Positions 22,678-48,833 of a DNA stretch of 64,000 bases are shown here, piece after piece. The position numbers and the translations under genes are program-made. The notes under the pieces were generated by a model. That model was not told the DNA's origin, ran no database searches, and saw only the letters and a program-made list of their open reading frames with translations. The DNA is from an uncultured Fretibacterium sp. (lineage in GTDB: Bacteria; Synergistota; Synergistia; Synergistales; Aminobacteriaceae): NCBI GenBank assembly GCA_946186205.1, contig CAMHMH010000002.1, positions 186,001 through 250,000 on the forward strand, given 5' to 3'. Position 1 is the first letter of the stretch; every line of letters begins with the position of its first letter.

Positions 22678-24951
22678 ATGATAAAACTTTATGATGAAGG
22701 CGTTTACCTCATCAACGGCGAAAAGATAGTACCCGAAAGCCAGTCAGCCAACAAATACGACAAGGCCGAAGCCAAGAAAGGCACAATCGCTTACGGCATA
22801 ATGAAGTCGCATAACACAGCGGGCGATATGGATCACCTGCGCATAAAGTTTGACTCGATGGCCTCGCATGACATTACGTTTGTCGGAATCATTCAGACAG
22901 CAAGGGCTTCAGGGATGACGAAATTCCCGCTTCCCTACGTGATGACGAACTGCCACAACTCACTGTGCGCTGTCGGCGGAACAATCAACGATGACGATCA
23001 CTATTTCGGACTCAGCGCGGCGAAGAAGTACGGCGGAATTTATGTCCCTCCTCACATTGCGGTAATACATCAGTTCATGCGCGAAATGTTTGCTGGCTGC
23101 GGAAAAATGATTCTCGGCTCAGACTCACACACACGTTACGGCGCGTTAGGAACGATGGCAATCGGTGAGGGCGGCGGAGAACTCGTCAAACAGCTTCTTG
23201 AAGATACATATGATGTAGCATATCCCGGAGTCGTCGCAATCTACATGAAGGGCAAGCCTGCTCCCTATGTCGGCCCGCATGATATTGCGCTCGCTATCGT
23301 CAAGGCAGTATTCGAGAAAGGCTACGTGAAAAACAAGGTCATGGAATTTGTCGGTCCCGGCGTTGCTTCAATGACTACAGATTACCGCAACGGCGTTGAC
23401 GTAATGACAACCGAAACAACATGCCTTTCGTCCGTTTGGAGGACTGATGACGACACGAAAGCGTTCCTTGCCGAGCATGGCCGCGAGAAAGACTACAAGG
23501 AGCTTAACCCGGCGGATGTAGCGTACTATGACGGCTGTGTGGAGATTGACCTTTCAACAATCAAGCCGATGATAGCATTGCCCTTCCACCCGTCAAACGC
23601 ATATACGATTGATGAGTTTTACGCGAACATGAAAGATCTTCTTGCTGACACTGAAGAGAGAGCCAAGAAAGTAGCAGGAGGCCGCGCGACATTCACGCTT
23701 ATGGACAAGATTACGCCTGACGGAAAACTCTACGTACAGCAGGGTGTAATCGGAGGCTGCGCAGGAGGAAACTACACGAACGTTGTCGAGGCAGCTCACG
23801 CCCTCAAAGGCAAGACATGCGGATTTGATGAATTTTACCTGAGTGTTTACCCGTCATCACAGCCGGTGTTTGTTGACCTTGACCGAAAAGGATTCCTCGC
23901 TGACCTCATGGACGCAGGCGCAATAATCAGAACGGCATTCTGCGGGCCTTGCTTCGGAGCAGGAGACACACCCGCTAACAACGCGCTTTCGATTCGCCAC
24001 ACAACGAGAAACTTCCCGAACCGTGAAGGCTCAAAGCCCGGCAACGGACAAATGTCAGCGGTGGCACTCATGGACGCAAGATCAATCGCGGCAACAGCGG
24101 CTAACGGCGGAAAACTCACGAGCGCAGAAGAGCTTGACTGCTGGGGCGATATTCCCGCGTATCACTATGATGACAAGGCGTATAAGTCCCGCGTCTATTG
24201 GGGATTCGGGAAGGCTGATTTTGAGTCTCCGATTCGTTTCGGGCCGAACATCAAAGACTGGCCGGAGCAGGAAGAATTAGCAGACAATATTTTGCTCCGT
24301 GTTGTGTCAAAGATTCTTGACGAGGTTACGACAACGGACGAGCTTATACCGTCAGGCGAGACATCATCATTCAGATCGAACCCGCTCGGATTGGCAGAGT
24401 TCACGCTTTCACGCAGAGACCCCGAATATGTCGGCAAAGCTAAGGAAGTCCAGAGAGTCGAATACGAAAGACTGAAGGGAATCAGCCCGGCCCGCGGCGA
24501 CATGGCAGAAGTTTACGCGGCAATCAAGACGATACCCGGCCAGGAGAACGCAGACCCGATGACTATCGAGTTCGGCTCAACGATTTACGCCAACAAGCCC
24601 GGCGACGGTTCAGCGCGTGAGCAGGCAGCTTCATGCCAGAGGGTTTTGGGCGCGCTCGCTAACATCACGCAGGAATATGCTACGAAGCGTTACCGTTCAA
24701 ACTGCATGAACTGGGGAATGATTCCTTTCCATCTCAAAGGGCAGCCTGATTTTGAGGTCGGCGATTATGTTTACGTCCCCGGAATCCGCAAGGCTCTCGA
24801 CGATAACAAGCTCGAAAGCATAAAAGCGTACATCATCAAGGGCGGCAAAGTAACGGAAGCAGAGCTTTACATTCAGCCTATGACCGACAACGAAAGAACG
24901 ATCGTAAAGGCCGGCTGCCTCATCAACTTCAACAGAAACCGCAAGAAGTAA
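22678..24951 (+). CDS. Aconitase-superfamily hydratase
   Basis: A 757-residue [4Fe-4S] hydro-lyase of the aconitase fold, close in size to the YbhJ branch. Three candidate cluster cysteines are visible: one in [12 protein letters not shown] and two in [13 protein letters not shown], matching the C / C-x-x-C pattern of aconitases. The substrate Ser/Arg region [22 protein letters not shown] is intact, and the swivel domain follows (about 560-757). The adjacent gene is isocitrate dehydrogenase, so it most likely acts as citrate/isocitrate aconitase; a related substrate such as 2-methylcitrate is possible. The ATG is preceded at 11 bases by a very G-rich ribosome site, which is a possible small-RNA target. 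Confidence 0.85.
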
Positions 24952-39643: not shown

Positions 39644-41071
39644 TTAGTGGTAGTTAGTGTTGTGCGTGTGAAGGTGTCTTGATGTTGAATGATGCTGAAC
39701 GTTCACGATTTGTATTTCAGCGGGCACTGCCTGAGTGTGTTCGGGCAAATCGTTCTGTATCTTACGTATTCTTTCTATCAGGCTGTTGATGATGATCTTG
39801 TCCTCGTCCTGCGGTGAAACTTGCGGAGCTTCTTCAGTGTCATCATATGAATGTGAGAGAGATAATGACAGCTTAGCGCACGCCGGGCCGATAAGCTCAT
39901 ACAAAACGCTTGACGCTAAAATCACGGTGCGCAGTGTGCTTCCTGTAGTGCCTCCGAGTGTACGCGCTCCCAGTTCAGCGAGTCCGATTGCGACTCCTGC
40001 CTGAGGGATTAACGCGAGTCCCAGATAGTTGCGCACAAGAATATTTTTCCCCGTCATCATGCAGCCGACAAAAGCCCCGGCATATTTTCCCGCAATCCTC
40101 ACAAGAAAGTAAACGACTCCAATCGTAAGCAATGATGTGCTGCCCTGGCTCGTTCCTCCCGTCAAAGCTCCGAGGTCAAAGCAGACTCCCGAACGCACAA
40201 AGAACAGCAGCAAAATCGGCGGGCTGAAATAATTTAGCTGCTTGAAAAGTTTATCATCGTCCGTAATATTAATGTAAACCGTTGACATGAACATGCAGCC
40301 CAAAAGCGGCGACACTCCGAGCATCTCGCAGAGTCCGCAGAACCCGAAAAGAATCGCAACCGAAACTATCAGCCTGTTGTCCTTTGAACGGTTAGCAAGA
40401 AGAATCTTCATGACGACTCCGAGAAATGCGCCGATAATCACGCTCGCAATGTTCATGATTATGGGAAGCGTTACGGCCCTGAAGTCAAAGCCGGCCCCTG
40501 AAGCAGTGAGAGCCAATGCGATTGAGACCGCCACGCTGTAAGCAATGAGTCCGACAACATCATCAAGAGCGACGACCTGCAATAACGTATTCACAAAATC
40601 ACCGTGCGCGCCCGTCTGTCGTATGGTCATCATCGTAGAGGCAGGAGCAGTGGCAGAAGCAAGAGCCGCAATCACCGCCGAGAATGCGAGATCCATACCG
40701 AGCACCCAATACGACGCAATGAATACGAACAATGAAGCGACGCAGGCCTCAAAGACCGTAATCACTAAAACTTTTGAGCCGTTCCCCTTAAGAGCATTGA
40801 GACGGAAGAACTGCCCCGTGCTGAAAGCTATGAACGCAAGCGCGATGTTCGGAAGAAATGATGTAGCCTCAGCGATAAAAGCCGGGACGAGATTCAAACA
40901 GTAAGGGCCGATCAATATCCCCGTGATGATGTAGGCGGTAACGTTCGGAAGTTTGAGCAGCTTTGTGACTCTGGTCAGAGCGAAGCCGAACATCAACATC
41001 AATGCTACAGTTATTACAGCGATGCTTGCAGGGGAGCTTGTGTTGAGATATTCCGCGAACCGGGCAAACAA
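39644..41071 (-). CDS. Monovalent cation/proton antiporter (CPA2 family)
   Basis: A 475-residue inner-membrane antiporter with 12-13 helices (about 10-400), like KefB/NapA-type Na+ or K+/H+ exchangers. The helix pair with conserved acid is seen in LLQVVALDDVVGLIAYS, where two Asp occupy the ion-binding position. The hydrophilic C-terminus of about 75 residues ends in a His-rich stretch (HHSTSRHLHTHNTNYH), which might respond to metal or pH. The start is set at TTG 41071 because AGGAG lies nine bases upstream; a GTG at 41098 has no ribosome site. Neighbourhood with a sodium pump subunit fits a role in sodium cycling. Confidence 0.85.
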   Translation of the reverse strand: MFARFAEYLNTSSPASIAVITVALMLMFGFALTRVTKLLKLPNVTAYIITGILIGPYCLNLVPAFIAEATSFLPNIALAFIAFSTGQFFRLNALKGNGSKVLVITVFEACVASLFVFIASYWVLGMDLAFSAVIAALASATAPASTMMTIRQTGAHGDFVNTLLQVVALDDVVGLIAYSVAVSIALALTASGAGFDFRAVTLPIIMNIASVIIGAFLGVVMKILLANRSKDNRLIVSVAILFGFCGLCEMLGVSPLLGCMFMSTVYINITDDDKLFKQLNYFSPPILLLFFVRSGVCFDLGALTGGTSQGSTSLLTIGVVYFLVRIAGKYAGAFVGCMMTGKNILVRNYLGLALIPQAGVAIGLAELGARTLGGTTGSTLRTVILASSVLYELIGPACAKLSLSLSHSYDDTEEAPQVSPQDEDKIIINSLIERIRKIQNDLPEHTQAVPAEIQIVNVQHHSTSRHLHTHNTNYH

Positions 41072-41113
41072 TTTTATTCTCTCCTTTCTTGTTTGCACAT
41101 GCCGTTAAAATTA

Positions 41114-41148
41114 TTAACCCCCTCGCACCGTAAGCACAAAGGGGTTAA
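41114..41148. other. Hairpin in the antiporter leader
   Basis: TTAACCCC and GGGGTTAA pair perfectly around a 19-base loop. On minus it lies 43 bases before the antiporter start and could be an attenuator; the T run after it is weak. Confidence 0.5.
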
Positions 41149-41186
41149 TCATGCTGAGTATTCTAACATTCTTTCACTGACTCATG

Positions 41187-41239: not shown

Positions 41240-41267
41240 TTGACACTTTGAGATTTAACGCTATAAT
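41240..41267 (+). promoter_or_regulatory. Near-consensus sigma70 promoter of the small RNA
   Basis: Perfect TTGACA (41240-41245) and perfect TATAAT (41262-41267), 16 bases apart. It is the strongest promoter seen in the window. Confidence 0.85.
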
Positions 41268-41273
41268 GTTTGA

Positions 41274-41447
41274 CGTAACGAACAAATGACGAAACGCAGT
41301 CAGCCGTGAAGACCTTGAACTTGCAAGAAAGATTTTCACGAAGAGACTATGACTTTAAGAACCCTCGTTCTTGTTCGACCGTTAAATAGTTTTACCCCCC
41401 TCAAAAGAAACACGGTCAGCCTAAGCCGGGCGGCCTGTTTTTTTTTT
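41274..41447 (+). ncRNA. Candidate structured small RNA of about 174 nt
   Basis: Bounded by a consensus promoter and an intrinsic terminator, with no convincing ORF inside. The RNA folds on paper as a nested rod: CGAACAA (41279-41285) with TTGTTCG (41371-41377), AGTCA with TGACT, CGTGAA with TTCACG, and CTTG with CAAG at the tip. After the rod comes an open C-rich stretch, TTTTACCCCCCTC (41390-41402), then the terminator. The rod recalls 6S RNA; the C-rich single-stranded part recalls Gram-positive regulatory RNAs such as FsrA and RsaE, which pair with ribosome sites. Complementary sites exist before the carrier gene (ten contiguous pairs) and the hydratase gene (eight). It does not appear to be the leader of the next gene, since a terminator lies between. 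Confidence 0.7.
41414..41447 (+). terminator. Terminator of the small RNA
   Basis: GGTCAGCC pairs with GGGCGGCC (one bulged A), followed by ten T. Confidence 0.88.
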
Positions 41448-47567: not shown

Positions 47568-48833
47568 CTAGTAAAACAGATGACCGAGATTGAACACTCC
47601 CAGCCATGACATCAATACATTGATTAAGACGTTCGCAACTGAAAGAAGGAAAAGAGTCTTGAACATGTTATTCATTTCTTCTGTCGTTGTCTCTTTGCTC
47701 GCGCTGTATGATGACATTATGATAGCTCCTCCCGTTGACAATGGACTTATAGCCGCCGCGAATGACGTTGCTATTATCCCCGACATCAATTCCACGTAAC
47801 TGACTCCGAATGTCCTCGCTACGTTGTCAGCAATCGGAAGCAATGCAGGCATAACGACTCCAGTTGTTGAACTCACCCATGAAAGTATACCTGACGTTGC
47901 CGACATTATCGGGACAGCAGTGTTTGTTGTCATTAACGTTGAGAGATAATCCGATACCAGTTTGATTCCTCCGAGCTTGTTTATGACGTTCACCAATGCA
48001 CCGACTCCGCATATGAACACGAGAGTCCCCCATGGGATTCCCTTTATGGCTTTCTTTTCGTCAGCACACCCCGTGAGAATCAATACACTTGCGGCGAGGA
48101 AGGCAAATAATCCCGTGTCGAGCTTGAAGCCTATGCAGCAAACTACTACTACAATGATTACTGCAACGGTGATTCTCTGCTCGCGGTTGAATTTCGGAAT
48201 CTCTGACCACTTCAGCGGGTTGTCAGCTTTGACTTTATACCCTTTGTACAGAATATACACTACAAGAGTGAAAACGAATCCCGAAAGAAGAGTCGACAAA
48301 AATAAATGCAAACCGAATCCCGAATAGCCCATAGGATTCGAGAGCTGCGCCGCTAAAATTCCCGTTATCGACAAAGTAGAAGCACACCCCGCGTTAGCTC
48401 CGAGCTTGGCATAAAGTGATGTAGCCATCGGGTTAATGTCCATCTCAAACGCAAGATACATCGCGAAAGTCGTCATTAAGATTCCCGCCGCGATATGTCC
48501 CGGACCAATCGCCGAAATGAAAGCCGACAATACGAACATAAGAATCGGAATCAGAACCGTACGTTTTCCGACAAGAGCGACAACTTTTTTCGAGAACAAT
48601 TCAAGCGTCCCATTCTGCGAGGCCATTCCGAACATGAACGTAACGCCGACGAGAGTCACGAACATTGACGAGCTGAATCCCGCCGTAATTTGTGATGCCT
48701 TCATTCCTCCGACAGTGCCGAGAACGAACGCCGCGCCTAACGCAAAGAATCCGAGATTGATTTTCTTGATGAAGCCGATCGCAACGACAACAGCAAGAAC
48801 GAGAAGAGATATTACCGGCAAATATTCCTGCAT
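47568..48833 (-). CDS. Dicarboxylate carrier, MatC/SLC13-like
   Basis: A 421-residue inner-membrane transporter with 11-12 helices in two inverted halves, each with a hairpin-like segment: SAIGPGHIAAGILMTTFAMY in the first half and AAISPLSTGGAIIMSSYSA in the second, the sodium/substrate loops of the ion transporter superfamily. It follows prpF by 21 bases in the same operon, so its substrate is probably a di- or tricarboxylate. The ribosome site AAAGGGGGTAAAAATC is complementary over ten bases to the C-rich part of the small RNA at 41274. Confidence 0.82.
   Translation of the reverse strand: MQEYLPVISLLVLAVVVAIGFIKKINLGFFALGAAFVLGTVGGMKASQITAGFSSSMFVTLVGVTFMFGMASQNGTLELFSKKVVALVGKRTVLIPILMFVLSAFISAIGPGHIAAGILMTTFAMYLAFEMDINPMATSLYAKLGANAGCASTLSITGILAAQLSNPMGYSGFGLHLFLSTLLSGFVFTLVVYILYKGYKVKADNPLKWSEIPKFNREQRITVAVIIVVVVCCIGFKLDTGLFAFLAASVLILTGCADEKKAIKGIPWGTLVFICGVGALVNVINKLGGIKLVSDYLSTLMTTNTAVPIMSATSGILSWVSSTTGVVMPALLPIADNVARTFGVSYVELMSGIIATSFAAAISPLSTGGAIIMSSYSASKETTTEEMNNMFKTLFLLSVANVLINVLMSWLGVFNLGHLFY

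Follow-up and report, generated by a model that had tools for sequence, protein, structure and literature searches.

The window analyzed here, a stretch of 64,000 nucleotides from an uncultured gut Fretibacterium sp. in the family Synergistaceae, carries on its plus strand a small RNA of ~174 nt (41274–41447), for which we infer a start ~7 nt after the -10 element of a sigma-70 type promoter (41240–41267). The -35 TTGACA (41240–41245) and the -10 TATAAT (41262–41267) lie 16 nt apart and match the consensus at 12 of 12 positions, which makes this the sole such site within the surrounding 2-kb region and bears out the perfect promoter pair claimed in the initial annotation. Among 43 homologous loci, collected with a homolog finder that required the motif GTTTG, the -35 is TTGACA in 42 and TTGACT in one, TATAAT is kept, and the spacer measures 16 nt in all but one. 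The GTTTG itself (41268–41272, plus strand) directly follows the -10, is invariant in other genera as well as this one, and is probably untranscribed. Together with CGAAC (41279–41283) it forms an imperfect inverted repeat, GTTTG-N6-CRAAC, that is perfect in locus L114; the motif could be a special discriminator, or an operator half paired with that CGAAC. The transcript closes with an intrinsic terminator (41403–41447, plus strand), a hairpin followed by the previously claimed ten T's at 41438–41447, whose position is kept across homologs while its sequence varies. A generic terminator scan did not list this element, probably because the T-run pairs with upstream A's in the fold; folding and comparison reveal the hairpin. 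High expression may be expected, to judge from the promoter alone.

The small RNA is adjoined by a divergent Na+/H+ exchanger gene (39644–41098, minus strand) and, in its own genome, by a glycosyltransferase gene that starts ~60 nt 3′ of it. The leader of the exchanger gene (41113–41153, minus strand) has a conserved CCCC/GGGG hairpin, after which come a U-rich run and, ahead of the SD, a conserved GCATGTGCAAACAAG; it looks like an attenuator or structured leader that is absent from Rfam. The Rfam scan of the window returned just a tRNA and the bacterial small SRP RNA (RF00169; 42594–42692, minus strand), an unrelated gene ~1.2 kb from the small RNA.

The rod-like fold described in the initial annotation is borne out by both folding energy and comparison. 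The RNA folds at -41.9 kcal/mol, whereas shuffled sequences average -33.5 ± 3.3 kcal/mol (z = -2.5) and 1 in 200 of them reaches as low an energy, and single-sequence folds of most homologs contain one rod of five helices, all on the plus strand. P1 joins GACG (41272–41275) to CGTT (41380–41383), the latter kept past inserted sequence in L011, L017 and L024 and present as TTGTT in L018. P2 joins CGAACAA (41279–41285) to TTGTTCG (41371–41377), is paired in 98.6% of cells and is compensated in L114 (CAAACAA/TTGTTTG). P3 joins ACGA (41289–41292) to TCGT (41365–41368) with compensatory changes at 4 of 4 pairs, and its 3′ strand combines with that of P2 in TCGTTCTTGTTCG (41365–41377). P4 is ATCAAT/ATTGAT in relatives and begins with GTCA here (41299–41302, pairing with 41350–41353), where the single-sequence fold prefers other local pairing. 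The apical hairpin P5 (41305–41340) has a variable stem and a conserved loop, which reads CCTGCAAGA in relatives and CTTGCAAGA in this species.

Across 42 sequences, 90% of the cells in the rod are paired and double changes occur at 19 of 27 pairs, in an alignment that was fitted to the rod structure, so that these figures lean toward pairing, and that was cleaned of chance rows (with those rows, 26 pairs had double changes). Double-change cells number 71 against 24.6 in shuffles, and sliding the partner by 1–3 columns reduces pairing to 36–46%. Examples can nonetheless be picked out by eye, in P2 of L114 and in the P1 3′ strand of L011, L017, L018 and L024. With a plain MAFFT alignment, in which the variable arms were misaligned, RNAalifold detected hardly any structure; a hand-seeded covariance model remedied this. 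Compensatory changes, sought in relatives as had been proposed, support the predicted five-helix rod. The shortest homologs (L111 and L113) retain just P1–P3, the C-run described below and the terminator, and these elements are therefore taken to be the core. In several loci (L011, L017, L018, L024 and L030) extra sequence, sometimes a hairpin, separates the 3′ strand of P2 from that of P1. It should be noted that P2 appears shifted in L118 (genome G009), with TGAACA/TGTTCA for CGAACAA/TTGTTCG and GTTTG-N6-CTAAC in place.

Single-stranded between the rod and the terminator lies a C-rich stretch, TTTTACCCCCCTC (41390–41402, plus strand), which contains six C's and is the proposed seed. This C-run corresponds to the open region noted initially; it is near-invariant and is predicted to be unpaired with a mean probability of 0.93 in the same 43 GTTTG-bearing loci. 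That a stretch is near-invariant yet unpaired, beside a rod evolving by compensatory change, argues for an intermolecular partner. The locus combines two properties of C-rich SD-targeting small RNAs, a conserved accessible C-run and a stand-alone promoter with an intrinsic terminator, and there is good support for the initial claim of a small RNA gene whose open C-rich region is of a ribosome-site-binding type.

Of 43 species-level genomes of the genus, 39 carry the small RNA, as do four genomes from related Synergistaceae genera. A covariance model recovered it in 38 of the genus genomes, essentially as one copy each, and a second model confirmed a further, diverged copy in G015 (locus L030). 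The covariance search of 183 genomes of the order added four genomes, all from other genera of the same family; in each copy TTGACA/TATAATGTTTG and a terminator hairpin are present, and the C-run ends in CCCCCTCAA. All four were confirmed by the second model, which gave no credible hit in the remaining genomes tried. The four genus genomes with no credible copy (G001, G002, G026 and G062) are all draft assemblies. A DNA search of 61 relatives placed the element in nearly all of the genus and, by that method, in no other family of the order. When 84,980 named species were scanned with a pattern, the credible matches were confined to Synergistaceae (rumen and gut MAGs, uncultured Synergistales and Fretibacterium sp.); nine matches outside the family (Proteobacteria, Chloroflexi, Flavobacteria and others) had no credible model score and were set aside as chance. 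The initial annotation had made its claim depend on conservation in close relatives, and absence from them was looked for and did not occur. The blocks common to the aligned homologs are GTTTGAYGTAACGAACAAAT, the CCTGCAAGA hairpin loop, CCCTCGTTCTTGTTCGATCGTT and AGTTTTACCCCCCTCAA; sequence between and after these blocks varies freely, the terminator included. Judged on these comparisons of sequence, the locus is a real stand-alone RNA gene and the RNA is a new family limited to the Synergistaceae.

Our preferred reading, to which we assign a probability of roughly 70%, is that this stand-alone gene with a strong promoter encodes a trans-acting Synergistaceae RNA whose C-run blocks the G-rich SD sites of a subset of mRNAs without Hfq. 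The 5′ two thirds of the transcript would fold into a protective rod (P1–P5) beginning at the transcription start, which would leave UUUUACCCCCCUCAA open just 5′ of the terminator. The C-run would then pair with G-rich SD or leader sequences (GAGGGGGUAAAA and AAGGGGGAUAAAA) in a subset of mRNAs, and this pairing would block ribosome binding with no need for Hfq. Hfq (PF17209) was not found in the organism's own genome, which is 99.7% complete. What we infer within this likely mechanism is that the C-run pairs with mRNA, that it represses and does not activate, and which targets it has.

Since any C-run pairs with any G-run, matches to terminator stems and G-rich ribosome sites are in part generic; for this reason the targets discussed here are candidates only. 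Most genomes of the genus contain the complement of the C-run more often than a reversed control. Within the window, 40 genes paired with the C-run at a mean of -8.2 kcal/mol, ordinary AGGAGG sites being weak, and just 2 of the 40 reached -14.5 kcal/mol or better. Both belong to organic-acid metabolism: an aconitase-family hydratase (22678–24951; site AAGAGGGGGTAAT, -16.1 kcal/mol) and a MatC/CitMHS-type dicarboxylate carrier (47568–48833; site CAAAGGGGGTAAAAATCATG, -16.6 kcal/mol). Elsewhere in the genome, near-complements of the C-run at gene starts include iorA (indolepyruvate:ferredoxin oxidoreductase alpha), the D-component of 2-hydroxyglutaryl-CoA dehydratase and an ABC transporter ATPase. 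The iorA site, AAGGGGGATAAAA, is little changed in nearly all readable copies of the genus. Pairing at the iorA RBS averages -15.1 kcal/mol in 27 species, compared to -9.1 ± 2.1 kcal/mol for shuffled seeds, which rarely retain six C's; 2 of 300 shuffles paired as well. Genome G026 is without a detectable small RNA, yet its G-rich iorA site is kept. The ABC transporter ATPase was rejected as a conserved target; it has the best gene-start match in the own genome, and its site is not kept in relatives. In the Na+/H+ exchanger leader, the G arm of the hairpin is complementary to the C-run in many species. The predicted targets are candidates by complementarity: iorA, the aconitase-family hydratase, the dicarboxylate carrier, the dehydratase D-component and the exchanger leader hairpin. 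Their apparent functional coherence comes from few genes that were chosen by that same complementarity.

An unlikely alternative, though the strongest of those considered, is that the C-run is a site for a protein or a scaffold/sponge site (for a KH or cold-shock protein, another single-strand binder or a partner small RNA), such that the RNA sequesters its partner and binds no mRNA. A motif that is unpaired, nearly invariant and flanked by an A-rich stretch beside a terminator would look identical under this explanation, and the failure to find an Hfq partner also favors it. Against it, complementary G-rich ribosome sites exist and the one at iorA is kept across the genus; known C-rich bacterial RNAs, moreover, act through pairing (PMC3771888, PMC5419742).

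The initial annotation had offered three identities, 6S RNA, a C-rich regulatory RNA or a new family, of which the latter two stand and the first does not. The covariance search it proposed against 6S and other RNA families gave no credible match: scanned against all of Rfam at E up to 10, the locus produced three chance matches (an lncRNA and two archaeal-type snoRNA families), none to an RsaE/RoxS-type model and none to RF00013, which was also without a match in the whole genome at E up to 0.001. That the RNA is 6S, or an additional polymerase-binding RNA of the 6S type, is suggested by its length, rod-like fold, strong promoter and single conserved gene. This identity is nevertheless very improbable and was rejected, since there is no RF00013 match and a separate true 6S gene is located ~76 kb away in the same genome (G000:C2:303124–303243). 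With a genus 6S as query, 6S was found in 42 of 43 genus genomes, the own genome included. Additionally, the internal loops of the rod are mostly small and a large central bubble is not evident, and the conserved part includes the unpaired 3′ C-run, which to our knowledge is no feature of 6S RNA. The genus 6S (L126–L130) is divergent and scores just under the Rfam gathering cut-off, and annotation pipelines are therefore likely to miss it.

Equally improbable is a cis-acting leader, a riboswitch or attenuator of the glycosyltransferase that begins so close downstream, for which GACCGT (41377–41382) could pair with ACGGTC (41412–41417) as an anti-terminator in the own species. The terminator sequence is unconserved and this match is therefore not general, and an additional -10-like TATAAT lies between the small RNA and the glycosyltransferase gene. 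The genes adjoining the small RNA also vary between species. Downstream genes differ in identity and orientation, with a glycosyltransferase in many species and radical-SAM, cysteine-synthase-like or other genes elsewhere, and the upstream gene differs too in about one third of loci (neighbor names were read from the sequences, not by family search in every locus). The RNA is not a leader, since it has a terminator to itself and is followed by different genes in different species. Least credible of all is a short messenger for a small peptide, for despite an ATG at 41286 in the own species, the only ATG frame is 7 codons long, roughly half of the homologs lack the ATG (ATACGA, not ATGACGA), and helices rather than codons govern conservation.

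The proposed pairing of the C-run with G-rich ribosome sites has counterparts in unrelated bacteria. The C-rich regions of RoxS/RsaE in Bacillus and Staphylococcus pair with G-rich or SD sequences, Hfq is generally dispensable, and the targets, among them sucCD and the 5′ end of the yflS mRNA, belong to central metabolism (PMC5419742). The likeness is of a C-rich stretch set against G-rich start regions without Hfq, with the pairing here being proposed; RoxS, however, has four C-rich regions where the Synergistaceae RNA has one dominant 3′ C-run, and lineage and fold differ. Similarly, sX13 of Xanthomonas is conserved, highly expressed and Hfq-independent, and its 4C/5C motifs repress mRNAs that carry G-rich motifs near the start (PMC3771888). 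That study found 5% of genes to carry a G-rich motif where the RBS lies (PMC3771888), a share similar to the 2 of 40 strongly pairing genes in the window. Conversely, sX13 is 115 nt long and presents its C's in three hairpin loops, whereas those of the Synergistaceae RNA are single-stranded between rod and terminator. We regard the RNA as real and new, a new family of a known functional kind, set apart from RoxS/RsaE and sX13 in terms of Rfam families.

A broader interpretation is possible but doubtful: that this is the first global base-pairing regulator recognized in Synergistota, Hfq-less and with an evolutionary origin separate from those of RoxS/RsaE and sX13, which through G-rich leader sites would set the translation of the neighboring Na+/H+ exchanger and of genes for fermenting organic acids and amino acids (iorA, the aconitase-type hydratase, the dicarboxylate carrier and 2-hydroxyglutaryl-CoA dehydratase). 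Small RNAs of the Synergistota appear almost unstudied, and the literature found on them consisted only of structured-RNA surveys touching the phylum. The family appears to be a further instance in which C-rich anti-SD RNAs arose in unrelated bacteria. With its compensatory changes, an obvious seed and a few candidate targets, it offers an entry to post-transcriptional control in Hfq-less amino-acid fermenters of the rumen and gut.
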